Assembly: GCA_019694685.1 (NCBI GenBank)
Contig: JAIBBM010000013.1
Location: 1-64,000 of the forward strand
From: Leptospirales bacterium
GTDB lineage: Bacteria > Spirochaetota > Leptospiria > Leptospirales > Leptonemataceae
Reading direction: 5' to 3'
DNA length: 64,000 bases
Below, one piece after another: positions 4,234-22,422 of this stretch. The translations under genes and the position numbers were made by a program. Under the pieces are notes generated by a model that ran no database searches, had not been told where the DNA came from, and saw only the letters and a program-made list of their open reading frames with translations. Numbering within the stretch: the first letter of the stretch is position 1; each line of letters begins with the position of its first letter.

Positions 4234-5406
4234 TCACTCCAGTTTTGTCAGTATAGCATTGCGTATGAATTCGTGCGCGGGCACATCCGGATATGGCATA
4301 AAATAGGCGCGCGCGGGCCCTGACTGTTTCTCATAGTCCATGTCAGACATGTTCAGCAAATCGTCTAACGCCCTGGCAAAAGAAGAATAATCCGCCCGGT
4401 TAATATGCCAGGGTCCAGTCGTCGGAGGATCGTATTGGGCAAGACCCGAGAAATTAGAGAACAAAACTCTTTGCCCCCAGCCGAATGCCTCACGACCCGC
4501 CGTGGATGCGCTCGTCACTGCAACCAGACTCTGATCCATGATCCGATATGTGCTCCGCGAAACCGGATCGAAGTCTGCCAGATGAGTTGCTTCGCCCAGA
4601 AGACGTTTGTAATATTCCTTCTCTCCTGGATTCGGAGAGCGTGTAGCAACACAGACACGCGCTTTCGAATTTCTAGTCCAGCGCCGCAGAAAGTAATGAA
4701 GAACCAGAATCGCGCGTTTCAGTTCCGGTATCTCGAAATCCCGGTGAACTCCGGGATACCAATCAGAAATAAAGCACACATCAAACTCGCGCGAGCTTCC
4801 TGACCACGGAACGCGTTTGCGATAGTACCCCGCGATGAGAGAACCAACCGGATGAAACTGTTTCACCGGAACTTCATAACGGCGAAAAATATCGATATCA
4901 AACTGACTGTAGCAAAAGAACTCCGGCAGAGGCAGAATAGGTTCGCCGGTATTCCAGCGTTCTTCCACTGGAAGACGCGTGCCATTCTGAACTGCACAAA
5001 ACGTGGCCGCCCCGGAAAACTCTGCAATCCAACGAAAATGGTGATTGTTGTCAATATGCGTGACGACTACACGGGCTCCCGATGCGCGAATGCAAGCAGT
5101 CAGGTACACGTGAAATGAACGTGATGCAATGTCACGATAGAACCTGGTTCGAAGAAAGAAGATCCTTACTTCCAGAAGCATGTACCAGAGCACGCGCGCG
5201 CCCAATAAATACTCTTCGCCGCGCACCGGCAGCACACATGCTTTTACGTCAGGCAGACAATATCCCAGAAGATACTGACTTCCTTCGCGATCAAAAATGG
5301 CAAGCTTGCTCTGGATTGGACTGCGAAACCTCGCGTTGCGCAAAACGCGCCTCAGGCGACCGGCCAGATAGAAAGCAAGTGCCACATATCTCAATAGTCG
5401 CCTCAT
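4234..5406 (-). CDS. Putative surface-carbohydrate transferase, GT-B-like
   Basis: 390 residues that I do not match to a characterised enzyme. The N-terminus is basic and amphipathic (MRRLLRYVALAFYLAGR), and a hydrophobic stretch lies near residues 65-85 (ARVLWYMLLEVRIFF). The middle carries FCAVQNGTRLP and VCFISDWYPG, then SASTAGREAFGWGQRVLFSN. This layout of a QNG turn followed by a late acidic/glycine loop resembles the orphan GT-B-like 'surface carbohydrate biosynthesis' proteins annotated in Leptospira LPS loci. The start overlaps the end of legF by 4 nt. A glycosyltransferase role is inferred from context and general shape only. Confidence 0.55.
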   Translation of the reverse strand: MRRLLRYVALAFYLAGRLRRVLRNARFRSPIQSKLAIFDREGSQYLLGYCLPDVKACVLPVRGEEYLLGARVLWYMLLEVRIFFLRTRFYRDIASRSFHVYLTACIRASGARVVVTHIDNNHHFRWIAEFSGAATFCAVQNGTRLPVEERWNTGEPILPLPEFFCYSQFDIDIFRRYEVPVKQFHPVGSLIAGYYRKRVPWSGSSREFDVCFISDWYPGVHRDFEIPELKRAILVLHYFLRRWTRNSKARVCVATRSPNPGEKEYYKRLLGEATHLADFDPVSRSTYRIMDQSLVAVTSASTAGREAFGWGQRVLFSNFSGLAQYDPPTTGPWHINRADYSSFARALDDLLNMSDMDYEKQSGPARAYFMPYPDVPAHEFIRNAILTKLE

Positions 5407-6095
5407 GCCGGATTTGGGCGCTGCGAAAGCTGGAACTCGGCCATAGCCCAGTCAAGCGGAGTGTCAATGTCAATGGATCGATCTGCAGGCATCACGTATC
5501 CAAACGCGCCCGATTCAGAGAAGCCTTTCCCTGCGCGCAGATGAGCAGAGCTCGCAGCGTACAGAGCACCATTGATCACATACGCCGGTTCGAGATCCTG
5601 ACGACGAGCCGGGACCTTCCCTCCAAGAATTGCTTTCATTTTTCCATCTCTGTCCAGGCGGTACATCCATTCAGGAGGAGAAGGTGCAGGCGAAAGCCCA
5701 ACAGCGCTTTGACAACCAGAGGCAATAAAAGCCTGCATAAATCCATCAATGTCGCCTGACGTGCGAAGTGGCGATGTTGGCTGGAGAAGCAAAAGAATCT
5801 CGATTTCTGGAAAACAATCGATGGCATGCCTTACCGGATCCATGCCCGAAGCTTCATCCGTTGCCAGCTCGACCGGGCGTTTCAGAGCTTGAGCGCCAAG
5901 AGATTTAGCCACCGTGAGTATCTCTTCATCTTCCGACGAAACAACAATCATGTCCAGGAATGCCGCCTGACGGGCCGCTTCGATGGTCCATCCAATCAGG
6001 GGCCGTCCGCCCAGAATCTTGATGTTTTTTCTGGGGATGCCCCTGGATCCTCCGCGCGCCGGAATCAGGGCCAGAACCTTCTTGCCGCCGATCAC
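5403..6095 (-). CDS. legF: CMP-nonulosonate (legionaminate) cytidylyltransferase
   Basis: 230 residues. The nucleotide-binding motif ARGGSRGIPRKN lies at residues 14-25, followed by LLQPTSPLR and a C-terminal DIDTPLDW acidic motif, all typical of acylneuraminate cytidylyltransferases (NeuA/LegF/PseF). The enzyme activates a nonulosonic acid with CTP to give the CMP-sugar donor. It is the last gene of an unbroken seven-gene legionaminate-type set. The start is GTG and shares the 4-nt GTGA junction with the stop of the upstream gene ptmE, so translational coupling is likely. Assignment to legionaminic rather than sialic acid rests on neighbours, not on this protein alone. Confidence 0.85.
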   Translation of the reverse strand: MIGGKKVLALIPARGGSRGIPRKNIKILGGRPLIGWTIEAARQAAFLDMIVVSSEDEEILTVAKSLGAQALKRPVELATDEASGMDPVRHAIDCFPEIEILLLLQPTSPLRTSGDIDGFMQAFIASGCQSAVGLSPAPSPPEWMYRLDRDGKMKAILGGKVPARRQDLEPAYVINGALYAASSAHLRAGKGFSESGAFGYVMPADRSIDIDTPLDWAMAEFQLSQRPNPA

Positions 6096-7141
6096 GAAAA
6101 TGTCTCGCCAAACTCTCCGTTCGCACGGCGGAAATCTTCGAGCCCTCCAATATCCAGCCAGTATTCACGCAGTGGATATGCGGATGTGGATTGGCCTGCC
6201 GTCCTGAGTTTGTCAAACAGTGTTGGCATATCAAAGAATTGACCCGAGGGAATGAGTTTTAGTGCAGCGGGGGAAATCGTGTAGATTCCAGCATTTACAA
6301 AAAACTTGTGAACGGGCTTTTCCTCAATGCCCCGAATTTCGTGACCTTCAATTCGGACCACTCCATAGGGCACCTGAAAATCGTATTCCTTCACGGCCAT
6401 TGTCGCCGCGGCTTTGTTCTCTTCGTGAAACTTTAGCATGGCGCTAAAATTCGCACGCGTTAGAAGATCACCGTTCATGACCAGAATAGGCTCCTCCGGC
6501 ACTTCGGGAAGAAGGGAGAGCGCTCCTGCCGTACCAAGGCTTTGCTTTTCGTGCAGATATTCAATTTTGACGCCCCATTTCGTGCCATCCCCAAAATAAT
6601 CAGAAATGGTGTGCGCGAGATAGTTTACAGATACATAGAATCTGCGGAAGCCCTGTTCTGCGAAATTTTCTAAAATGTTTTCAAGGATAGGCTTTCCACC
6701 GACGGCCAGGAGAGGTTTGGGTGTATCTTCTGTCAGAGGGCGAAGTCGCTTCCCCTGACCGCCCGCCATAAGGACAACTCGATTGGGTTTCTCAACTGCG
6801 CCAATCAAATCATCCAGTGTAGCCAGCCCAACAATGCGACGGTCCGCATCCACTACAGGCAAATGATGGAGCACACCCCTTCGCATGATCGAAAGCATTT
6901 CCTCGTGCGAAGTATCTGGACGAACGGTCACGGGATTTGAATTCATCACGTCTCGCGCTGCAATATCAAGACTCTGACCTTTCAAAATCGCACGTCGAAT
7001 ATCTCCGTCCGTAAGAACACCTTCCAGCTTCCCGGCAGGCCCTGCCACCAGTACGAGCTGGATCCCCGTAGCATCAATCTGCTTGAGCGCATCGAGAATC
7101 GATCGCTCCGGAGCCAGAATACTTTGTTCCCAACTTCTCAA
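6092..7141 (-). CDS. ptmE: CBS-domain sugar-1-phosphate guanylyltransferase (PtmE-like)
   Basis: 349 residues. Two CBS motifs occupy roughly residues 1-115 (GVLTDGDIRRAIL, LPVVDADRRIVGLAT) and precede a nucleotidyltransferase domain with LMAGGQGKRLRPLTEDTPKP. This fusion is typical of Campylobacter PtmE, which makes GDP-glucosamine in the GDP-linked legionaminic acid pathway. The start appears to be TTG: GAGG lies about 6 nt upstream, and no in-frame ATG occurs early without losing conserved CBS sequence. It overlaps legF by 4 nt. An alternative is a mannose-1-phosphate guanylyltransferase, but the CBS fusion and neighbours favour PtmE. Confidence 0.82.
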   Translation of the reverse strand: MRSWEQSILAPERSILDALKQIDATGIQLVLVAGPAGKLEGVLTDGDIRRAILKGQSLDIAARDVMNSNPVTVRPDTSHEEMLSIMRRGVLHHLPVVDADRRIVGLATLDDLIGAVEKPNRVVLMAGGQGKRLRPLTEDTPKPLLAVGGKPILENILENFAEQGFRRFYVSVNYLAHTISDYFGDGTKWGVKIEYLHEKQSLGTAGALSLLPEVPEEPILVMNGDLLTRANFSAMLKFHEENKAAATMAVKEYDFQVPYGVVRIEGHEIRGIEEKPVHKFFVNAGIYTISPAALKLIPSGQFFDMPTLFDKLRTAGQSTSAYPLREYWLDIGGLEDFRRANGEFGETFS

Positions 7142-7149
7142 ATCTTACC

Positions 7150-7782
7150 TCAAATCACACGCGCTGGATTTCCAACAATCGTGGCACCGGCCGCAACTTC
7201 CTGGATGACAACAGAGCCAGCTCCAATCACAGATCCAGCGCCGACGCGAGTTCCCGGTACCAATATGGCACCCGCACCGACGAAGACAGATTCCTCAAGC
7301 GTCACGCCGCCACAGAGAATTGCGCCAGGCGAAACGTAGCAATGCGCGCCCACTCTGCAATCGTGATCTACACGCGCCGCCGTATTGATCACAACGTTTT
7401 CGGCGATTCGAACGCGGTTCTGAATTACAGCTCCAGCAAGGATCTGCGCGCTGGGATCAATTTCACATTCATTCCCCACAATCGTGTCCGGGTGAAGCAC
7501 ACCCTGCACCGTGAAACCCATTTGAAGCCACGCGGAATACTGCGTGCGCCGTCGCTCTACATTCTTTACTGCGCCAAACCCGTTGAGTACGGAATTCCCG
7601 CTTGCTGGAAGCGACTCCAGATAAGAGTCATTGCCCAGCACAGGAATACCAAAAATGAGTTCGCCCGGAGACAAGGCGCCATCAATTACGCCATCCACGG
7701 AAATCCCGGCGCGCAAGGCCGAGTCCAGAACGACTCTCCCATGCCCACCTCCGGCGATTAGAAGCAGAAGTCCTGATTTCAT
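7150..7782 (-). CDS. legH: NeuD/LegH-like sugar O/N-acyltransferase
   Basis: 210 residues. An N-terminal Rossmann-like part begins LLLIAGGGHGRVVLD. The remainder is a left-handed beta-helix built of hexapeptide repeats (for example VGAGAILVPGTRVGAGSVIG), as in NeuD and PglD-type acetyltransferases. In a legionaminate set this is the expected acetyl-CoA-dependent N-acetyltransferase acting on the 4-amino intermediate (LegH); sialic-acid O-acetylation is the alternative. The ATG overlaps the stop of the NeuB-type gene by 4 nt. Confidence 0.8.
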   Translation of the reverse strand: MKSGLLLLIAGGGHGRVVLDSALRAGISVDGVIDGALSPGELIFGIPVLGNDSYLESLPASGNSVLNGFGAVKNVERRRTQYSAWLQMGFTVQGVLHPDTIVGNECEIDPSAQILAGAVIQNRVRIAENVVINTAARVDHDCRVGAHCYVSPGAILCGGVTLEESVFVGAGAILVPGTRVGAGSVIGAGSVVIQEVAAGATIVGNPARVI

Positions 7783-8855
7783 TCGTTCAGCAACTCCTCA
7801 GCGCTATAGGTTCTGGTTGCTTTCTTTCCGATCCATTTCCAGTACGCCATGGGCGAAATACCATTTCCTGGTCTCTTTACACCGAGATTTTCTTCCGTAA
7901 ACTCCTGGCCGCTTTGAATTTCGCGCAGGGCAACCAGACTCTTCCTGGCCACGCTCATATTCTTTCTCTCAGAAATGGTTGGGCGTTTGCGACCATCGCC
8001 TAACGCTTGTTCTACGTCACGAATCGCATGAACCATTTCCCTGAGTTCCGCGGGTTCGAGAGACGCCTTGTGATCGGGGCCATCCATACCGCGATCCATT
8101 GTAAAATGCTTCTCTATAACGCACGCGCCTCGTGCAACGGCAGCCACCGCGACGTGAATGCCACGGGTATGGTCAGAGTAGCCTGTTTTCAAACCGAAGG
8201 AAGAAGCGAGTGTATCCATCGCACGAAGATTCACTTCGCTCATGGGGGCGGGATACTCTGTGGTTGCGTGCAGAAGGATGACCCTGTTTCGCAGTTCGTC
8301 CCACGCTTTTTGAGAATCCCCGATCTCGATCAAAGAAGACCTGTCAGGATTTCCTGTCGGATTAAGGAAACCAAATGCTATGATCGCCAGAGCCGCTTCC
8401 ACCTCTGAAAGATCGCTCATGCCGGTCGATAAGATGATTTTCTCAGCGGAACGAGCAATTTGAAGAAGAAAGGGGCCGTTCGTGATCTCTCCAGAAGGAA
8501 TCTTGATGGTTCGAATTCCGAAGCGTTCCGTGAGGAGACGAAGACTCAGAGAATCAAAAGGTGTAGACAGAAATTCGATCCCAACTTGCTTTGCGTGCGC
8601 AATCAGATCGCTGTGAGCGGATTCATCGAGCTCCAGTTTCTTAAGCATCTCCGCCTGACTTTCGTCTCCTTTCATTGCGCGAATCTGATACTCAGCACGC
8701 GGCGCAGATGCGCTGACCAGCGCTTCTGTGCGAAAAGTCTGAAACTTTACTGCATCCGCACCCGCACTGGCTGCGACTTCGATCATCTTTCGCGCGACTT
8801 CGAGAGATCCGTTGTGATTGACGCCAGCTTCAGCGATAATGAAGCACTTGCTCAT
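7779..8855 (-). CDS. legI: Nonulosonic acid synthase (legionaminate synthase, NeuB family)
   Basis: 358 residues. The TIM barrel starts with IIAEAGVNHNGSLEVA and holds FLSTPFD, KIPSGEI, ILSTGMS, GYSDHT and PDHKASLEP, all diagnostic of NeuB-type synthases, followed by a C-terminal SAF (antifreeze-like) domain. The enzyme condenses phosphoenolpyruvate with an N-acetylated hexose to form the nine-carbon acid. It lies between LegG-like epimerase and LegH-like acetyltransferase with 4-nt overlaps on both sides. A second, clearly different NeuB homologue lies at 19529-20578. Confidence 0.9.
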   Translation of the reverse strand: MSKCFIIAEAGVNHNGSLEVARKMIEVAASAGADAVKFQTFRTEALVSASAPRAEYQIRAMKGDESQAEMLKKLELDESAHSDLIAHAKQVGIEFLSTPFDSLSLRLLTERFGIRTIKIPSGEITNGPFLLQIARSAEKIILSTGMSDLSEVEAALAIIAFGFLNPTGNPDRSSLIEIGDSQKAWDELRNRVILLHATTEYPAPMSEVNLRAMDTLASSFGLKTGYSDHTRGIHVAVAAVARGACVIEKHFTMDRGMDGPDHKASLEPAELREMVHAIRDVEQALGDGRKRPTISERKNMSVARKSLVALREIQSGQEFTEENLGVKRPGNGISPMAYWKWIGKKATRTYSAEELLNE

Positions 8856-13600: not shown

Positions 13601-15405
13601 AATTTCCCTCGACGAAGTTGTTTCAGGAGATGCGACCAGGAGCTCGACCAGTGATTCACAGCATGACCATATCTAGCCACAAAGCGAGATACCACAGAAG
13701 AATTCTTCTTCATCCAGGCGTGAGGATCTAACTTGAAGCGTGCGTATTCGTCAAACAAAGTGGACGCAGTTCTGTGCACAATGCCCGCGTCCTCAAGTGC
13801 TTTGAAATCTCCTACACACCATTCTTCCTCTTCGCAGTAGAGTCTCGACCATAGAATCATAGTTGGAATTCCGCACTGAAGGCATTCCAGGAACCCGGTG
13901 CCTGGCTGATCCCAGAGAACCAGCGACGCATGATTGAGCGTTTCCATGGTCAGACCCTTGTCAAAATGTTCTGCGCGATCAAAGTATTCACCGCCCACCG
14001 TTTCGAGTTGCGCATAAGTCTCTCGCATCAAATACAATGTCAGAGCGTTGTACGGTTTGCAGTGAATGCGAACCTTTCGCTCATTGGCGTGCCGGGCCAC
14101 ATCGATCATTTCCGCAGAGAATGACTGCAGCACGTCGCGACGCACGGAAGAAGCCCCCTGAGGAGCGCCAGGAAAACGTTTCATCATTTGCGGCATCCAG
14201 AGCATGTCAAAGCGTCGACCCAGACCAATGCGGTATTTCGACCAGTAGAGTCTACGTTCTGACATCCAGGGACCAGGCATGGGCAATACTTGAAGTGAAG
14301 AGAATTCTGGATGCTCTGGAAGCCTTGTCCATCCCCAGCTCAAGAAGATGTCGGTGTCGGGGAATTCGACTTCCAGCATATGCGTAAAATCTCTATAATA
14401 ACCGTAGTGTCCACCGTGCTGAAACTTCACGATCTTGAAACCCCTGGCGCGCGCCGCGCCGATCACGAACATAGAATGCGACGATCCATCCCCGGATGAA
14501 ATCAACGCACGGGTTTGGAACTCCCGGAGCAAGTCGTCCGCGATTGCATGATTCTTACCAACGCCTTCTAAAAACTGCGCGGGAAAAAAATCGCAAAAGA
14601 ATCTTACCAGAAGAGACCGCGCTATCGCTCGCTGTTCCCCTGAAAGTCCGCAGAAAGAGAATAATTTATCCGCAGCTTCGCTTCGCGCCAACGCGGTGAA
14701 GAGCTCAATGCGACGGTCCTGATCCATGGATACATCCGGCCATGTCCAGTGATCAGAAACTCTCTTGATGTCTTTTCGAAGAAAGAATCCGCGCCTATGA
14801 AATGCAACGTCCGCGTTCGCAAGTGTCAGTACAGGGATGGTTTCGCGAGGAAACAGGCGACCGATGAACATATTCCATCGCAAAGCAAGCCGCTCTCGCC
14901 AGGTAGTGACGTCCATCTGAAAGAGCCGATTGCGCGAAGGAACGGAAGGAGAAGGTTCAAATTCCAGTTCAACTTGAGATGCTTCCAGATTCCACACTGG
15001 AGCGAGATATGAAATCACCCATTGATTGAATCCAGGATCCAATGCATATGCTTCCACATCTTCTGCAATGCTGGGAGCATTTCCTACCCGGCCTTTGGGC
15101 ACCGCGACATCTGACCCAGATTGATTCAATGCGCGCGAAATGCGAAGCAATCTGTCAAAGAAAAGATGGGCAACCGGCAGGATACCGCGACGCATATAGA
15201 CACGCCCGGCCGAACGTTCAATTTGTTGCGTTTCGCAATATTGGGTGCAAAGCAGATCCACACCAAAAATCGTAAAATCGCGAAGACCGGCAGACAATGA
15301 AAGAAGGTCAGACGCCGGGACAATCGTCCCGCGCACTTGCTCGCTTTGAAAGAGAGCAACGCAGTCTGAATTCACTGGCTCTGCCGTGAGAAGTCTTGTG
15401 GCCAT
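13597..15405 (-). CDS. Putative surface-polysaccharide transferase (resembles leptospiral LIC12162-type)
   Basis: 602 residues from the ATG at 15405, which overlaps the upstream stop as TAATG; the open frame extends to 15525 inside the previous gene. The central part has KFQHGGHYGYYRDF and the C-terminal part has LVLWDQPGTGFLECLQCGIP. This is the arrangement I associate with a family of large putative transferases in Leptospira O-antigen loci (LIC12162-type), with a GT-B-like C-terminal half. No characterised relative is recognised. A role in transferring a sugar or similar group during O-antigen assembly is inferred from context. Confidence 0.55.
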   Translation of the reverse strand: MATRLLTAEPVNSDCVALFQSEQVRGTIVPASDLLSLSAGLRDFTIFGVDLLCTQYCETQQIERSAGRVYMRRGILPVAHLFFDRLLRISRALNQSGSDVAVPKGRVGNAPSIAEDVEAYALDPGFNQWVISYLAPVWNLEASQVELEFEPSPSVPSRNRLFQMDVTTWRERLALRWNMFIGRLFPRETIPVLTLANADVAFHRRGFFLRKDIKRVSDHWTWPDVSMDQDRRIELFTALARSEAADKLFSFCGLSGEQRAIARSLLVRFFCDFFPAQFLEGVGKNHAIADDLLREFQTRALISSGDGSSHSMFVIGAARARGFKIVKFQHGGHYGYYRDFTHMLEVEFPDTDIFLSWGWTRLPEHPEFSSLQVLPMPGPWMSERRLYWSKYRIGLGRRFDMLWMPQMMKRFPGAPQGASSVRRDVLQSFSAEMIDVARHANERKVRIHCKPYNALTLYLMRETYAQLETVGGEYFDRAEHFDKGLTMETLNHASLVLWDQPGTGFLECLQCGIPTMILWSRLYCEEEEWCVGDFKALEDAGIVHRTASTLFDEYARFKLDPHAWMKKNSSVVSRFVARYGHAVNHWSSSWSHLLKQLRRGKL

Positions 15406-16514
15406 TATTTTGCGGAAGCCCAAACTCGCTCTTTGTAATTCAGGATTCGTCTTTCGATCAAAAACCAGGACAGAATGGCGAGTAGAAACACGATGGCCAC
15501 ATTCGCAATGTCTACAAAGAGCCACAGGAAAGACCCGGCCGGCGGTGACATACCTGATCTTTCCAGAAAACGTTCCGAAAGGCGATAAACAGGCAAATGA
15601 AATAGATAGAGCCCGTAAGATATTTTGCCAATGAAGCGCAAGGTTTTGCTCTTAAGCACACCAGGAACCAAAAATCCAGTGACTACACCGTAAAGAACTA
15701 CAAGTATAGAGAGAGTCAGCAAAGGTGCACCACCCATGAAGAACCAGCGAGTCTGTTCACCCGGAGTGGCAAAACTGAACATTGCGAAGACGTACGCCAG
15801 GGCGGCAAAAAAAAGATACGTGTAGCGCCTGTACCATCCTGACGTAGTCTGATGGTTCGTCTCAGAGCGTGAACGCACAAGAATAGCAAGCCACACACCC
15901 ATCCCGATTTGAGAGAAATGCCAGAACGGATTGTGGTATGCGCCGCCCTGATACTTGTGCAGCACGTAGGGCATCATACAGGCGTTCAGAAAAAAGAAAA
16001 AAAGAAGCGACCAGGAGAATCGTTTCAGGTTTTGGATCTGCCCTACCAGAAAAGGGAACACGAGGTAAAATGCTTCTTCGATCGATAAAGACCATGCGTG
16101 CGGAAACCAGTAAGGATTTGGAAACCTGTGAGTGACCTCAAGAAATTTTGGAAGGACTGTGGTGTACGTCACAAGGTAAAAATAGTTCAATATGGTTACG
16201 GCCGCGCCGTCGAAGTAGTAAATCAATGGCAATAGAACGAGTGGAACGACGGTAAAGATCGGAGGCAGGAGGCGAAGAGCTCTGCGTACATAAAACTTTC
16301 CGTAACGAATGCGACCGCTTCTTTCCTTTTCCTGAAACAACAAACTCGAAATGAGAAAGCCAGACAGTACAAAGAAAACATCTACACCGATGAAACCACC
16401 CGTGAACAGCTCTCGATCGCCAATGCGCAAGAAGAACCTGGAATAGAGGTGATCCCACATCACCATCAGACAGGCGAAAGCCCGGATGCTATCGATTTCG
16501 GAAATGTATTTCAT
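15405..16514 (-). CDS. Membrane acyltransferase, acyltransferase-3/OafA family
   Basis: 369 residues with about ten hydrophobic segments. The N-terminus has IDSIRAFACLMVMWDH with the family's conserved Arg and His, followed by GGFIGVDVFFVLSGFLI. These inner-membrane enzymes O-acylate (usually O-acetylate) surface polysaccharides or lipid A sugars. I chose ATG 16514 because the conserved family start (MKYISEIDSIRAF) begins there. A longer frame to 16577 would overlap the upstream gene, and neither start has a clear ribosome site. Confidence 0.85.
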   Translation of the reverse strand: MKYISEIDSIRAFACLMVMWDHLYSRFFLRIGDRELFTGGFIGVDVFFVLSGFLISSLLFQEKERSGRIRYGKFYVRRALRLLPPIFTVVPLVLLPLIYYFDGAAVTILNYFYLVTYTTVLPKFLEVTHRFPNPYWFPHAWSLSIEEAFYLVFPFLVGQIQNLKRFSWSLLFFFFLNACMMPYVLHKYQGGAYHNPFWHFSQIGMGVWLAILVRSRSETNHQTTSGWYRRYTYLFFAALAYVFAMFSFATPGEQTRWFFMGGAPLLTLSILVVLYGVVTGFLVPGVLKSKTLRFIGKISYGLYLFHLPVYRLSERFLERSGMSPPAGSFLWLFVDIANVAIVFLLAILSWFLIERRILNYKERVWASAK

Positions 16515-16524
16515 AAAAGGAGAA

Positions 16525-17490
16525 TCAGACAGGATTGGCAGATCCGCGAAGGAAAGAATGCAGCATACGAGCAGCATGCCCGTATGCGATCTCCTGAGCT
16601 TCGCGCGTCATTCCGCCGATGTGTTGTGTAATCACGACTTGCCTTCCGGACTTTGCGTAATCCAATAAAGGACTATTCAGACGATTCTTGATTTCATCCG
16701 CCAGAACATCCACTCCTGCCCTGGCCTCAGGATTGTTCTTCAAAAACCCAACCAGATCAGACTCGTTGATGATCTCACCACGCGCGGTATTGATGAGCAG
16801 AACATCCTTTTTCATGCGAGCAAAACTCGCCGCATGAATCATGTTCGTGGTCTCCGGGGAAACGTGCACATGAATCGAAATCACGTCACTTCTCTCGAAC
16901 AATTCTTCGATCGTTGCAAGCTGGGAAATATCGGCCCTATCAACCTTCTTGTATGGATCGTAAACAAGAACTTGCGCACCAAAAGCGCGGCAGTAGCCAG
17001 CGTATAGAGATCCCAGCCGACCATAGCCAATGACACCAACCGTCAGTGAGTTCAACTGGCGTCCAATGTAGTGAGTGTAATCCCATTCTCCCTCAAGAGC
17101 ACCCGCATGACTCCATAGCACTTTGCGAAGTTGCGCCATGGTCAGCGCGAATGCGAGCTCTGCCGTAGAAGAAATCCTATTGATAACCTCTCGTTGCTCT
17201 GTGAGAGAGAGCACAGTGATGTTTCGAGCTGCGGCGGCTTTCTTATCAATGTGATTCGTGCCGGTGGAAGCGGTGCAAATGGCCTTCAGATTTCCTGCAG
17301 ACAGGATCTCCTCGCCGATATAGACGCGACTCTTGTTGGGGTTCGTAAAAATCGCATCATAAGAAGAGATTTGTCCGATTACTTCTGAAGGCTCGGGATC
17401 GTCCAGGTACGTGACTTCTCCCGCAGATTCGAGAACCTCAGGTACACCGGCGATGTGAAGCACAGGGGTGATAACGAGAATTCTTGGCAT
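16525..17490 (-). CDS. D-2-hydroxyacid dehydrogenase family oxidoreductase
   Basis: 321 residues. NAD-binding GVIGYGRLGSLYAG is followed by the catalytic positions of the family: Arg in INTARGEI, Glu/Asp in DVLADEIKN, His in ITQHIGGMT. It is placed 4 bp downstream of a cytidylyltransferase and close to a NeuB homologue, so it may act on an alpha-keto acid or its derivative within the second nonulosonate module. That substrate is inference; a phosphoglycerate or lactate dehydrogenase-like activity cannot be excluded. A second member of this family lies at 26607-27542. Confidence 0.8.
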   Translation of the reverse strand: MPRILVITPVLHIAGVPEVLESAGEVTYLDDPEPSEVIGQISSYDAIFTNPNKSRVYIGEEILSAGNLKAICTASTGTNHIDKKAAAARNITVLSLTEQREVINRISSTAELAFALTMAQLRKVLWSHAGALEGEWDYTHYIGRQLNSLTVGVIGYGRLGSLYAGYCRAFGAQVLVYDPYKKVDRADISQLATIEELFERSDVISIHVHVSPETTNMIHAASFARMKKDVLLINTARGEIINESDLVGFLKNNPEARAGVDVLADEIKNRLNSPLLDYAKSGRQVVITQHIGGMTREAQEIAYGHAARMLHSFLRGSANPV

Positions 17491-17494
17491 ATCG

Positions 17495-18214
17495 TCAGGT
17501 TCCGGACGCGGCTTTTTCGAGTATCTTTTCTGCGATCAAGAAATCAATTTCTGTGTCCACGTTAATCGCTCTTTCAGGAGGAAGAATGTAAGGTCTGCTA
17601 TGCTTTGATCCAAAGCGACGATTCTCCTCCATTAAGTGTTTGCGACTCAACGCATAAATGGAGCCACTTCTAATGTATGCATCCGGCTTCAAATCCTGTC
17701 GCCGCATCTCCGGAACCTCTGGCAGACAAAAATCGACGATGAGGTCATCCACAATCTTCTTGATACGGATCGGATGATGATCGTCAAGTTTGTGCACGGC
17801 AATGACCGAGTCCGCGCCAGTCTCGACGAGTTTTTGAATGCAAGAATCTATGTCGCCAGTTGTCTTCAACGGATTCGTACACATCATTTCAATAATATAG
17901 TCGTACTTACTATTCTCCTCTTTCTCAACCCAGCTGACAGCATGCTGCAACGCCGAAACAGACGATGCTGTGTCGGTGGAGAACTCCGCGGGACGAAGAA
18001 AAGGTGCGTCGGCACCGTAGCGAATCGCCGTGTCGCGAATCTCCGGATCGTCTGTGGAAATGATATAACGAGTCAGGTATTGTGAAGCGAGCGCAGCACG
18101 AATCGTGTACGCGATGAGCGGAACTCCAAGGATGGGCCTTATGTTCTTGTGCGGAACGCTCTTCGAGCCTCCGCGCGCCAGAGTGATGCCAAGAATTCTA
18201 GGTTTGGTAGTCAT
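17495..18214 (-). CDS. Second acylneuraminate-type cytidylyltransferase (NeuA2)
   Basis: 239 residues. LARGGSKSVPHKN is the nucleotide-binding motif, TNPLKTTGDIDS the middle motif and NVDTEIDFLIAE the acidic C-terminal motif. It makes CMP-activated 2-keto sugar acids. It is only distantly similar to the first copy (5403-6095), which suggests a different acid substrate rather than a recent duplication. The ATG at 18214 begins the conserved fold; the open frame extends 14 codons further without motif. It lies 51 bp after the glycosyltransferase-fusion gene and 4 bp before the dehydrogenase. Confidence 0.85.
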   Translation of the reverse strand: MTTKPRILGITLARGGSKSVPHKNIRPILGVPLIAYTIRAALASQYLTRYIISTDDPEIRDTAIRYGADAPFLRPAEFSTDTASSVSALQHAVSWVEKEENSKYDYIIEMMCTNPLKTTGDIDSCIQKLVETGADSVIAVHKLDDHHPIRIKKIVDDLIVDFCLPEVPEMRRQDLKPDAYIRSGSIYALSRKHLMEENRRFGSKHSRPYILPPERAINVDTEIDFLIAEKILEKAASGT

Positions 18215-18265
18215 ACGATTTTCTCTATAGTTTAGCTGAACGTCAGGCTGTGGCACAAAGGCGAA

Positions 18266-19525
18266 TCAATTGTCTTCGAGAGGAAGGATCGCGACTTTGT
18301 TTCCAATTAATGCGCCGGATCGAATGAGAGCAGGAGCGGTCACAGTTCCAAGGCCATACCGCGCAATGTAAACGGGTTCCTTCTTCTCGCGACGCGTATA
18401 ATCGGCACGAAGTTGCGCGTAAACCCCGTTGTCTTTCTGCCAGATATTGCTATACTCTCTGTTCGCCCAGAAAACGGATTCATACATGTCACCGTAGTAG
18501 CAATGTATAGCTTCGCGCAGCAACTCCCACTTCAACCCGGGAGAGCGCAGATTGATATAGACCACCGCGTCCGGAAAGAAATTGCGAGCTGCTTCATCCT
18601 CGATCAACTCCGCCAGAATTTCAACGAATGTCCTTTCACGATCGTCCGCCGCGTAGGGAAGAACGTCGGGCCCTACGGGAAGATCCCGCAGAAGCTCGGC
18701 CTGTGCAGAATGAACAATGAATCTGCCTGGCGGAGCGTCCTTCATCTGGCCCAGCAAAGACAGAAGAACGGTATGAGTACCTGCGTCATGGCCCAGAAAA
18801 CAATAAAGCGTATGTGAATTCTCAGCACGCATGAATTCTGGAAGCTCCATCGAATAACCAAGGCGACCACTCCCAAGAATCTGCGAAATTGCTTCTGCTC
18901 GTTTTATGTTAGCATGATGATTGATGCCGTGGTGATGATACACTACAGCGCCCGGTGTGTACGCGATCCATATCTGATTCTCAATCAACTGAGCGGCCCA
19001 GAGGCGATCTTCGATGTGAGGCGTCTCTTCATCAAAGGGAAATCTCTCCCACACCGAGCGACGCAATATGCTGTTGGCGTTGTGAAAAAAGGTGTCCTTC
19101 TTCTGTACTCGAAACTCGATACCGAATGTGTTGAGCAAGTCCCTTTTGTCGAGAGGATGCGATGTGTGCATGGGAAGCTGCCGGCCGTATGCTGCGCCAA
19201 TGGTTGTATCGTCCATCGCAGAAACAAAACTGGCAAGCCAGCTCTCCTCCGCAGGCACGCAGTGAGCAGAAATAATGACCACGAGTTCCCCGCTCGCAGC
19301 TTCTATGCCTGCATTGATGGCTCTGCCCGGCTTAAAGTCTCCAATTTCGAGGATTCGTCCCGATGGGTATTCCTTGCGAAAGATGGCGCACGTTGCGTCT
19401 GTGCTCTGGTTATCCACCAGAATGACCTCGAAATCCTGGTACGACTGACGCTTCAACTGCGGAAGAAGACGCGGCAGCCAGTACTCTTCGTTCTTTGCTC
19501 GAATGATAATGGAAACACGAGGCAT
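18266..19525 (-). CDS. Family-2 glycosyltransferase with C-terminal cytidylyltransferase-like domain
   Basis: 419 residues. Residues 1 to about 220 are a GT2 (GT-A fold) glycosyltransferase: VSIIIRAKNEEYWLP, VILVDNQSTDAT, ISAHCVPAEESWL and HIEDRLWAAQ. Residues 236-419 are extra. Their layout (HTVLLSLLGQM, RFIVHSAQAELL, PDAVVYINLRSP, LLREAIHCY, ARYGLG) follows the order of secondary elements in NeuA/KdsB cytidylyltransferases but lacks the CTP-binding RxGSK-KN motif. That half therefore looks like a degenerate, probably non-catalytic copy; this reading is my inference from pattern, not a database match. The gene sits between NeuB2 and NeuA2, so it may use the CMP-sugar they make. Confidence 0.72.
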   Translation of the reverse strand: MPRVSIIIRAKNEEYWLPRLLPQLKRQSYQDFEVILVDNQSTDATCAIFRKEYPSGRILEIGDFKPGRAINAGIEAASGELVVIISAHCVPAEESWLASFVSAMDDTTIGAAYGRQLPMHTSHPLDKRDLLNTFGIEFRVQKKDTFFHNANSILRRSVWERFPFDEETPHIEDRLWAAQLIENQIWIAYTPGAVVYHHHGINHHANIKRAEAISQILGSGRLGYSMELPEFMRAENSHTLYCFLGHDAGTHTVLLSLLGQMKDAPPGRFIVHSAQAELLRDLPVGPDVLPYAADDRERTFVEILAELIEDEAARNFFPDAVVYINLRSPGLKWELLREAIHCYYGDMYESVFWANREYSNIWQKDNGVYAQLRADYTRREKKEPVYIARYGLGTVTAPALIRSGALIGNKVAILPLEDN

Positions 19526-19528
19526 AGG

Positions 19529-20578
19529 TTAGCTTAGCATTGCCTTTTCAATGAGAACGTCTTCGGAAATATCGACGACGGCTTTTTTCCCGACTACATT
19601 GTTTATCTCATACGTCGCGAAACCTGTGCCTGGCCCCCGAAAGGAAATCATCTCGGATGAAATGATTTCTCCTGCGCGAATCGCGCGCGCAGTTGCAATC
19701 GAGACGCGTTGCTGCTCTCTCTTCACAAGCTCTTCAGGAAGTAGATGTTTCTTCCCGTCACCCATCATGGACTCAATCGCTCTAATCTGCAAAACAACTT
19801 CTTTGAGATCCGCCGGATTAAGAGATATCTTGTGATCAAATCCCGGCATGTTGTTGTCGAGCGTGATGTGACGTTCCACTATGCAGGCACCGCGCGCCAC
19901 GGCAGCGAGCGTAGGCAAGCTCTTCGCACTGAACTCTTCATGGCCAGAATAGCCAACAGGAACGCCGTAACGCTCACGAAGAAGATCAATCATTCGAAGT
20001 TGAACAAGCGAGAAAGGAGTCGGATAAGCGGACACGCAATGAAGCAGAGCGAAAGGACAATCGTATTTACGAATGACTGACACAGCCATGTCGAGTTCTT
20101 CGATTGTGGACATACCGGTAGAAACGATCAAAGGCTTTCGTTTCTGAGCCAGCACCTCAAGGAGCGGAATGAAAGTAAGATTGTGGCTCGCGCTCTTGAT
20201 CACTTCAGGCTCAAGTGCATCGATCTCCTTCGCAGAATTCAGTTCAAAGGGAGTTACAAAGAAAGGAATCGCTTTCGAACGCGAATAATCACGAAGCTCC
20301 ATTAGCTGCGATGTAGAAAACTCGACAGCCTGACGCACTTCTCGATAGGTTGAACCGAAAGCAGGAAAACGCAAATCGGGGGCATCGAGAAACGAACGCA
20401 CGGCGAGACTGGGCACATGACGCTTCTGAAACTTCACAGCATCACAACCTGCCGCTTTTGCTGCATCAATCAGTTGCTTCGCAATTTCCATGGAACCGTT
20501 GTGGTTGAGTCCCACCTCGGCGATGACGAATACAGGCTGCCCGTCTCCGACGATTTTGTCGAATAGCTTAATCTGCAT
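19529..20578 (-). CDS. Second NeuB-family sugar acid synthase (NeuB2)
   Basis: 349 residues from ATG 20578, which has AGGA five bases upstream. Motifs IAEVGLNHNGSMEIA, VKFQKRH, FFVTPFE, IVSTGMST, GYSGHEE and FDHKISLNP identify a NeuB-type phosphoenolpyruvate-condensing synthase with a C-terminal SAF domain. Compared with LegI in this window, the loop GYSDHT is replaced by GYSGHEE and the FQKRH region differs, so a different aldose substrate is likely. No dedicated precursor-making genes stand beside it, which leaves the starting sugar unknown. Confidence 0.85.
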   Translation of the reverse strand: MQIKLFDKIVGDGQPVFVIAEVGLNHNGSMEIAKQLIDAAKAAGCDAVKFQKRHVPSLAVRSFLDAPDLRFPAFGSTYREVRQAVEFSTSQLMELRDYSRSKAIPFFVTPFELNSAKEIDALEPEVIKSASHNLTFIPLLEVLAQKRKPLIVSTGMSTIEELDMAVSVIRKYDCPFALLHCVSAYPTPFSLVQLRMIDLLRERYGVPVGYSGHEEFSAKSLPTLAAVARGACIVERHITLDNNMPGFDHKISLNPADLKEVVLQIRAIESMMGDGKKHLLPEELVKREQQRVSIATARAIRAGEIISSEMISFRGPGTGFATYEINNVVGKKAVVDISEDVLIEKAMLS

Positions 20579-20592
20579 AGTTCCTCTCTTGA

Positions 20593-22422
20593 TCAATTGT
20601 GAGCGGCGAATAGTTCTTCGTATTTGCCGGCTCGACGAATCTGTCCTGCGCCAAGCTCAATGACCTGATCGCAATTCTTTACAGTACTGAGTCTATGGGC
20701 AATCATCAGAATCGTCAGATCTTTACCAAGACCTTCGATTGCTTCCATCACCGCTTGCTCAGTTTCATTATCAAGCGCGCTGGTCGCCTCGTCAAAGACG
20801 ATAACGGATGCTTGCTTGTAGAGTGCTCTTGCAATGCCGATCCTCTGGCGTTGTCCACCTGAGAGCCTGATGCCGCGTTCTCCGACAAAAGTCTGGTATC
20901 CGGCCTGCAGTGTTTCAATGTGAGAGCTGATCTGGGCCTGCGACGCTGCGCGCTTCACGCGATCCATGTCGATCTGATCTGCCGGCACGCCAAAAGCGAT
21001 ATTCTCCGCGATCGACGTATCAGAAAGATAAATCATCTGAGGCACATGGGCCACGTTCGCCTGCCACGCACGCATCGTAGTGCTATCAATGGTTACGCCA
21101 TCGACAAGAAGTCGACCTTCCGTGGGGACAAGGAGTGCCAGAAGAATATCCAGCAGTGTACTTTTTCCGCTTCCAGTGATGCCAACAATTCCCACTCGAG
21201 ATCCATGAGGGATTTCCATCGTAACGTCGCGAAGAACCCACGGACCTTCTTCGGAATAGCGAAAACCAATATGATCTAACGTTATGCGATCCTTAAAGGC
21301 CATTGGTATCGGTGGTGGCTCAGTAGCATAGGCCGGGAGAGGCTGATCGAGGAAGCCAAGCACTTCCCGCATAGTAGACTGGCTAATTTTCACGTTGGTC
21401 CAGGAGACGAAAGTTGCCTGCATCACAGGCAGAATCCTCTGGGCCCCGAGAGCCATCGCACCAAGGAGTGGAATATGTTGATTGAGACCTCCTGGAGAGC
21501 GCGTGAGCGCGTAGGCGAAGCCAGCAAGAAGAACCATGGCGACAGCTTCAATGGCAAACCTGGGCGTCCCCGCAAGAAAAGTGGCATTTGCGTTTGCACG
21601 ATTCAAACGCCTATCTGACGTGCGAAAAATGCCACTGTAGAAATCCTGGCTGCCGTCGAGAAGGATGTCGCGGATACCGCCAAGACCCTCGCTCATAGTT
21701 TGAGTGGCTCGAGTGAGTTCGCGAGCCAGAATACGTCCATTCGTATCCAGACTATTCTTTGAAAAAATAGCAATCACGAAATATATCGTTGAGAACCCTG
21801 CGACAGCGGAGAGTGAAACGACAGGGTCTATGGTTACAAGAAAAGAAACGATGGAAACAATGACGCAGAGGGATCCAAAAATTGTGAGAAGCGGCGAAAT
21901 TGTCTGATTCACGAGACCTTTCGCCTTCGATGTCGCAGTCGCTACTTCACTGGAATTGCGACCCACGTGCACAAAATACGGTTGGAACAAAGTGCGGCGA
22001 TACACATCGTACGCAAGGTCCGCACCGATCGCATTGCAGAGCCGCGTATTCGCCCACAAAAACAATAGACGTGCGCCACCTGTCACCAGGGCGGCACATG
22101 CAAAGGCAATCGTCATAGGAAGAACCATTTGCTCCGGCGACTGAATCCCGGTCAGTTCCCATAGGAATTGGAGCCGAGGATGGTGAAACGTTCGCCCTGG
22201 ATCTGTGAGGACTGCCAGGAAGGAGAGGATCGCTCCGATGCTGATCACTTCGGCGGCGGATACAGCGACCATGAGCCCCATCAAGAGGAACACCTGAGTT
22301 CTGCGAACAGGCTTCAGATGCAGCCAGAGTCGCTTCAGATAAGAGGGAAGCTCGGAGATGTCGCGAATATAGGTCCGGATCGGGCCTATCTTAGCCTGAG
22401 ACATGTGCTGCCTCAAAGTCAT
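20593..22422 (-). CDS. ABC exporter/flippase (PglK/MsbA-like, fused TM-ATPase)
   Basis: 609 residues. A six-helix transmembrane part (roughly residues 40-340) is followed by an ATPase domain with Walker [10 protein letters not shown], signature LSGGQRQR, Walker [10 protein letters not shown] and the H-loop IAHRLS. This half-transporter architecture occurs in PglK-type flippases for lipid-linked oligosaccharides and in MsbA. Within this locus, export of a lipid-linked O-antigen unit or precursor is the most likely job. The first ATG overlaps the fcl stop region by 32 nt; ATG 22404 is an alternative start with less overlap. Confidence 0.85.

Follow-up and report, generated by a model that had tools for sequence, protein, structure and literature searches.

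What does a domain that resembles a CMP-sugar synthetase contribute to a glycosyltransferase encoded next to an intact synthetase of the same kind? The question is raised by a 419-aa protein encoded at 18266..19525 on the minus strand of the window (the whole stretch of DNA that was analysed, 64,000 nucleotides from a Leptospirales bacterium). It is a fusion of a GT2 glycosyltransferase (GT) with a pseudo-NeuA domain. The gene is flanked on the same strand by NeuB2, a sialic-acid-type synthase (19529..20596; PF03102 2.8e-70, with TIGR03569 below cutoff), and by NeuA2, a cytidylyltransferase with an intact RGGSKSVPHKN loop (17495..18256; PF02348 7.9e-20), in the order that the earlier note had given. 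NeuA2 starts 9 bp past the GT stop if the GTG is used, or about 51 bp past it if the ATG is used. The same cluster continues on the minus strand with a D-2-hydroxyacid dehydrogenase (16525..17490; PF02826 1.5e-43) and a membrane acyltransferase (15405..16577; PF01757 7.7e-36).

A contig scan returned five loci with related proteins. The first, L001, is a Desulfobacterales MAG (48% identity over residues 2-418), L003 is a Desulfatibacillum MAG and L002, L004 and L005 are Pelagibacteraceae assemblies. The order NeuB - GT - NeuA - hydroxyacid dehydrogenase is common to the window and L001, the latter with an inserted methyltransferase-like gene. At the place of the acyltransferase, L001 has a similar-looking membrane protein that is unmatched by the acyltransferase HMM. 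Profile matches (cut-offs 1e-40 or 1e-60; genome totals include the seed genomes) were found in 13 of 347 genomes from the order to which L002 belongs, in 4 of 395 from the phylum to which L001 belongs and in 2 of 393 from the window's phylum, one of these being the window's own. Not all matches are complete fusions (the GT of L034 is incomplete), and the analysis set comprises 19 complete fusions: the window copy and 18 relatives of the same layout. A viral scan gave no relatives, the three matches in phages are limited to the GT2 part, and no plasmid record was matched at 80% coverage. No description of a GT2 protein fused to a dead CMP-sugar synthetase was found in the open-access literature searched. 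The fusion is found in groups as far apart as Desulfobacterales and the marine Pelagibacteraceae.

Identity of the C-terminal domain

The C-terminal part (residues 236-419, starting around residue 230; 18269..18820, minus strand) has no Pfam match of its own in the window copy. A direct phmmer search of the PDB returned PPR repeat proteins only, which were discarded as they offered no significant single stretch. The identity of the domain therefore rests on its relatives. Four of these score above the gathering threshold of PF02348 in the C-terminal domain (L003 6.7e-8, L002 1.4e-6, L005 3.3e-5 and L004 8.6e-5), with matches beginning at profile position 18-26, i.e. past the P-loop. Three unfused NeuAs (73-85 bits, in a small ORF set) are likewise matched by an HMM built from six members of the GT family. 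When a profile of the C-terminal domain alone was run against the PDB, the five sequences found were all CMP-sugar synthetases (best E 7e-7). In hhalign, the 19 fused domains match 19 NeuAs with a probability of 99.8 (E 2.3e-30). The E-value is 4.7e-7 for the window and L001 domains against the NeuA profile, and 3.7e-6 over 101 columns for the window domain alone; all of these are E-values of single comparisons, and five control pairs reached a probability of 0.1-1.3%.

The predicted fold points in the same direction. From an alignment of the window domain and five relatives, with NeuA sequences left out, AlphaFold2 gave a model with pLDDT 70.9 and pTM 0.69, in which residues 173-186 of the domain are poorly predicted (a single-sequence model of the whole 419-aa protein, pLDDT 32, was not used). 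In Foldseek, each of the 13 best PDB matches of the domain model is a synthetase of CMP-NeuAc, CMP-Kdn or CMP-pseudaminic acid (E 1.2e-8 to 3.5e-6, TM 0.52-0.58). This was the fold search that the earlier note had proposed as a check, and acylneuraminate cytidylyltransferases indeed came out on top. A TM near 0.55 supports the fold of the modelled domain, not its detail. The nucleotidyltransferase fold is common to IspD, KdsB and GlmU, and the CMP-sialate-type synthetases came first in both the sequence and the fold searches. The NeuA order of elements read in the earlier note is also borne out by the alignment: IVHSAQAELL aligns with IISTDDPEI, PDAVVYINLRSP with YDYIIEMMCTNP, and LLREAIHCY with the next helix.

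Taken with the motif counts and the tree, these profile and model results make it almost certain that residues ~230-419 form a degenerate CMP-sugar synthetase (NeuA-type) domain. In an unrooted tree from which the columns of the deleted P-loop were omitted, a branch supported at 100/99 sets the fused domains apart as one clade. The neighbouring NeuAs are drawn from several NeuA clades. No standalone dead NeuA was recognised among the loci of the Pelagibacterales search; the five unfused NeuAs that fail the P-loop regex keep the loop length and the KN, with variant letters (read by eye).

The degenerate nucleotide site

The CMP-sialic, Kdn and pseudaminic acid synthetases (PF02348; PDB 6ifd, 1qwj, 1eyr, 9ftb, 9t4z) share fold and element order with the window domain and match it significantly. 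Unlike them, the window domain is fused to a GT2 domain and its nucleotide site is incomplete. The P-loop (GSKxxxxKN) is deleted at residues 244-250 (18776..18796, minus strand): every one of the 19 fused domains has gaps in the K21 and N22 columns, which are filled in all 19 aligned NeuAs, and the P-loop regex has no match in any fused protein. The absence of the RxGSK-KN loop is thus as the earlier note described it. Four fused domains still have the Arg at R12, and at S15 the five commonest letters do not include Ser. The R71 position, which we take to be that of the cytosine-site Arg (a role assigned after the N. meningitidis enzyme), carries Arg within an RP motif in 15/19 fused domains; it is absent from the window, where Leu is found, and from L001. 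These two copies are also missing the Asp tail with the metal Asp pair (D213/D215 positions). Having lost the P-loop, the R71-position Arg and the tail, the window copy is among the more degraded of the fused domains. Residue roles were taken from the V. cholerae CMP-sialate synthetase (CMAS) (PMC6580227) and mapped through the alignment by motif.

Given this loss of nucleotide-binding residues, catalysis has probably been lost in the fused domain, and the intact synthetase site of a bifunctional GT-NeuA fusion is absent. It had also been suggested that the dead domain might bind the CMP-sugar. For the window copy this is unlikely on the same residues, as none of the three sites is left. A related possibility is that the domain acts as a ligand sensor, binding CMP, the CMP-sugar or the free sugar acid and thereby regulating the GT or NeuA2. 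There is precedent in GMPPA, likewise a non-catalytic nucleotidyltransferase paralogue beside an active enzyme, which binds product, interacts with its partner GMPPB and inhibits it (PMC11228364). GMPPA differs from the window domain in belonging to another nucleotidyltransferase family, in being a separate protein and in binding a nucleotide sugar. The RP motif kept in many fused domains would suit a sensor, but the P-loop is gone in all of them and the window and L001 lack the other two elements as well, so that such a role appears quite improbable.

The dead domain beside NeuA

Could the domain be no more than a functionless relic, now decaying, of a GT-NeuA fusion that was once bifunctional? 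The NeuA part of Campylobacter jejuni CgtA/NeuA1 is an active synthetase. In that system a glycosyltransferase and NeuA are likewise found in one gene, so natural fusions of this type do exist (PMC7248181); by comparison, the window fusion lacks the nucleotide site and is accompanied by a separate NeuA. The missing C-terminal tail of the window copy and L001 would also fit decay. However, the reading frame of the dead domain is open in 19/19 fusions. A simple Nei-Gojobori script gave dN/dS values well under 1 for the dead domain in three pairs, the window copy being in none: 0.115 (L004/L005), 0.122 (L027/L028) and 0.287 (L002/L005), next to 0.056-0.091 for the GT domain. These values are rough, since some of the comparisons are close to saturation at synonymous sites. 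To judge from these three pairs, the fused domains are under purifying selection, and a relic is very hard to reconcile with the data.

CMP-sialate synthetases are dimers in which the extended dimerization module of each subunit closes over the active site of the other, and a catalytic Arg on this module acts on the opposite subunit (PMC6580227). The segment of the window domain that aligns with this module covers approximately residues 354-386 (18368..18466, minus strand; module limits as in the V. cholerae CMAS, PMC6580227). Six columns are conserved in the fused domains but not in NeuA. Five of them lie at residues 357-402, three of these within 354-386, and none is among the 72 N-lobe columns. 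Taken as a whole, the segment shows no higher conservation than the remainder of the domain (mean entropy 2.37 versus 2.1-2.3). The second Arg of RRQ, which matches the catalytic Arg of the module, is found in the window and L001 and in 8/19 fused domains overall, i.e. under half.

A separate NeuA, identified with the NeuA profile, is located within 4.4 kb of the fusion in 19/19 loci, on either side of the GT; the only control for this proximity is the GT2 motif comparison (His-type versus Asp-type) described below. In eleven of the 19 loci it adjoins or overlaps the fusion, with gaps of 13 bp or less in ten and a 92-bp frame overlap in L035, whose NeuA has a variant P-loop (KKNSVGIPGKN). The nearest NeuA is 1.2-4.3 kb off in six loci (L003, L004, L027, L028, L037 and L038). 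That of L029 is encoded on the other strand, and that of L004 is joined to a methyltransferase.

The dimerization region has been kept while the nucleotide site decayed, and for this reason docking is the most likely role of the dead domain. NeuB2 and NeuA2 would make a CMP-activated sugar acid, which the GT2 domain probably uses as donor. The dead domain, with its own nucleotide site decayed and its dimerization region apparently retained, could then attach the GT to NeuA2 in the manner of a heterodimer, placing the transferase beside the source of its CMP-sugar and allowing the donor to be channelled. That the same fusion is found next to a working NeuA in bacteria distant from one another suggests that the domain is kept as a docking part and not as a catalyst. 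The partner would be a dimer-forming protein, most likely NeuA2. A pseudoenzyme module docking the transferase to NeuA2 is a tentative proposal, credible but somewhat short of probable. It is compatible with the NeuA neighbours in 19/19 loci and with the family-specific residues conserved in the dimerization module and in the next strand. The proximity of the NeuA genes would fit a shared pathway without contact as well. The distance matrices of the fused domains and their partner NeuAs correlate modestly (r 0.44, or 0.24 as a partial correlation that takes the GT domain into account), which is not decisive. As the partner NeuAs come from several clades, any specific interface would need to accommodate a change of partner.

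Two other roles were considered. In the first, the dead domain pairs with itself to give a GT dimer and leaves NeuA2 uncontacted. NeuA-type domains do dimerize through the region that is kept (PMC6580227), and self-pairing requires no co-divergence with NeuA. By itself, however, it leaves the NeuA in 19/19 neighbourhoods unexplained, although a shared pathway would account for it, and homodimerization is considered unlikely. Equally unlikely is an add-on in which the fold is reused to hold the acceptor glycan or to stabilise the GT domain. The dead domain diverges faster than the GT domain (mean distance 0.70 versus 0.41 over 12 loci) and its family-specific residues lie outside the nucleotide site, as an add-on might predict, but positive evidence is absent and the neighbouring NeuA is again left unexplained.

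Should the dead domain indeed dock NeuA, this would offer a natural example in which a pseudo-synthetase brings a CMP-sugar transferase to where its donor is made, and the domain would mark GT2 transferases that use CMP-sugar acids. Even without docking, the analysis gives a name to a conserved fusion whose C-terminal part is invisible to Pfam in the window copy.

The GT2 domain and variant gene arrangements

The GT2 catalytic domain covers residues 1-204 (approximately; 18914..19525, minus strand), as delimited by its PF00535 match (8e-22) and by conserved columns. Its motif S86-A-H-C-V-P91 (19253..19270, minus strand) has Asp in sampled relatives (TQDA-type), while H88 and C89 are invariant across the compared proteins. 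We take this site to be the place of the acidic DxD-like metal-binding motif of GT2 enzymes; such a motif is absent from the domain and SAHC stands there instead. With SAHC in place of the Asp motif, the GT2 domain may be metal-independent. E172-D173 is also invariant and presumably represents the catalytic-base motif. A more detailed version of the docking proposal would have the GT family form a heterodimer with a live NeuA, give its dimerization module in trans and hand the CMP-sugar acid directly to the metal-independent GT2 site; in this full form it is doubtful.

The motif was compared with the neighbouring genes in 28 GT2 proteins from two phyla, with flanks of about 1.5 kb or less. By script count, a NeuA lies beside four of eight His-containing motifs but beside none of the remaining 20 (Fisher p 0.0034). 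Among the eight is L066, whose motif THDAVP places Asp where the window protein has H88; moved by hand to the Asp group, it changes the counts to 4/7 for His-for-Asp and 0/21 for Asp-type, a reassignment made by reading after the table had been seen, so that the p-value belongs to the script count only. Because the flanks are short and three of the four positives are themselves fusions of the GT2 + pseudo-NeuA family, the association of the His-Cys form with a neighbouring NeuA in this small sample is suggestive only; as far as it goes, it favours a CMP-activated donor for the GT2 domain. The His-Cys form (SGHC) is also found in plasmid GT2s of Sulfitobacter D7 and Thalassovita, with an overlapping NeuA gene and an adjoining dehydrogenase; unlike the window protein, these GT2s (~320 aa) have no pseudo-NeuA domain. 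A plasmid of Pararhizobium sp. A13 carries a NeuA-like fragment (L043:6731-7195), apparently a broken gene, in overlap with the end of an SGHC-type GT2. An SAHT-form GT2 shares one 649-aa frame with an apparent alcohol dehydrogenase in L053:205-2151 (minus strand).

Other arrangements were seen around NeuA. A NeuA with an intact P-loop is found in one frame with a methyltransferase domain in L004:2139-3890 (Pfam) and L088:1429-3171 (by eye), and a 488-aa frame in L084:724-2187 has a NeuB-like start and a NeuA with intact P-loop at its end (by eye). A DAHP-synthase-like gene occurs near the fusion in ten loci (L002, L003, L004, L005, L026, L029, L031, L032, L033 and L034), nine of which, L004 being the exception, also have a shikimate-dehydrogenase-like gene. 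Pfam matches confirm the DAHP synthase of L002, L003 and L005 as well as the shikimate dehydrogenase domain of L002. In several other loci NeuB takes the place of the DAHP-synthase-like gene, and both are present in L029 and L032. Different loci may activate different acids with CMP. A D-2-hydroxyacid (phosphoglycerate-type) dehydrogenase is a repeated neighbour of NeuA in the fusion loci of the window, L001, L003, L026, L038 and L039, and the same type adjoins NeuA in two Roseobacter plasmids (L041 and L042).

At 18256-18268 of the window, the GT stop (TGA) is in frame with NeuA2 and read-through would fuse both, a one-in-three coincidence. The window further holds a second NeuA (5403-6095) and a second NeuB-like gene (7779-8855) within 5403-8855, together with a nucleotidyltransferase with a kpsF/GutQ-like N-terminus (6092-7141).
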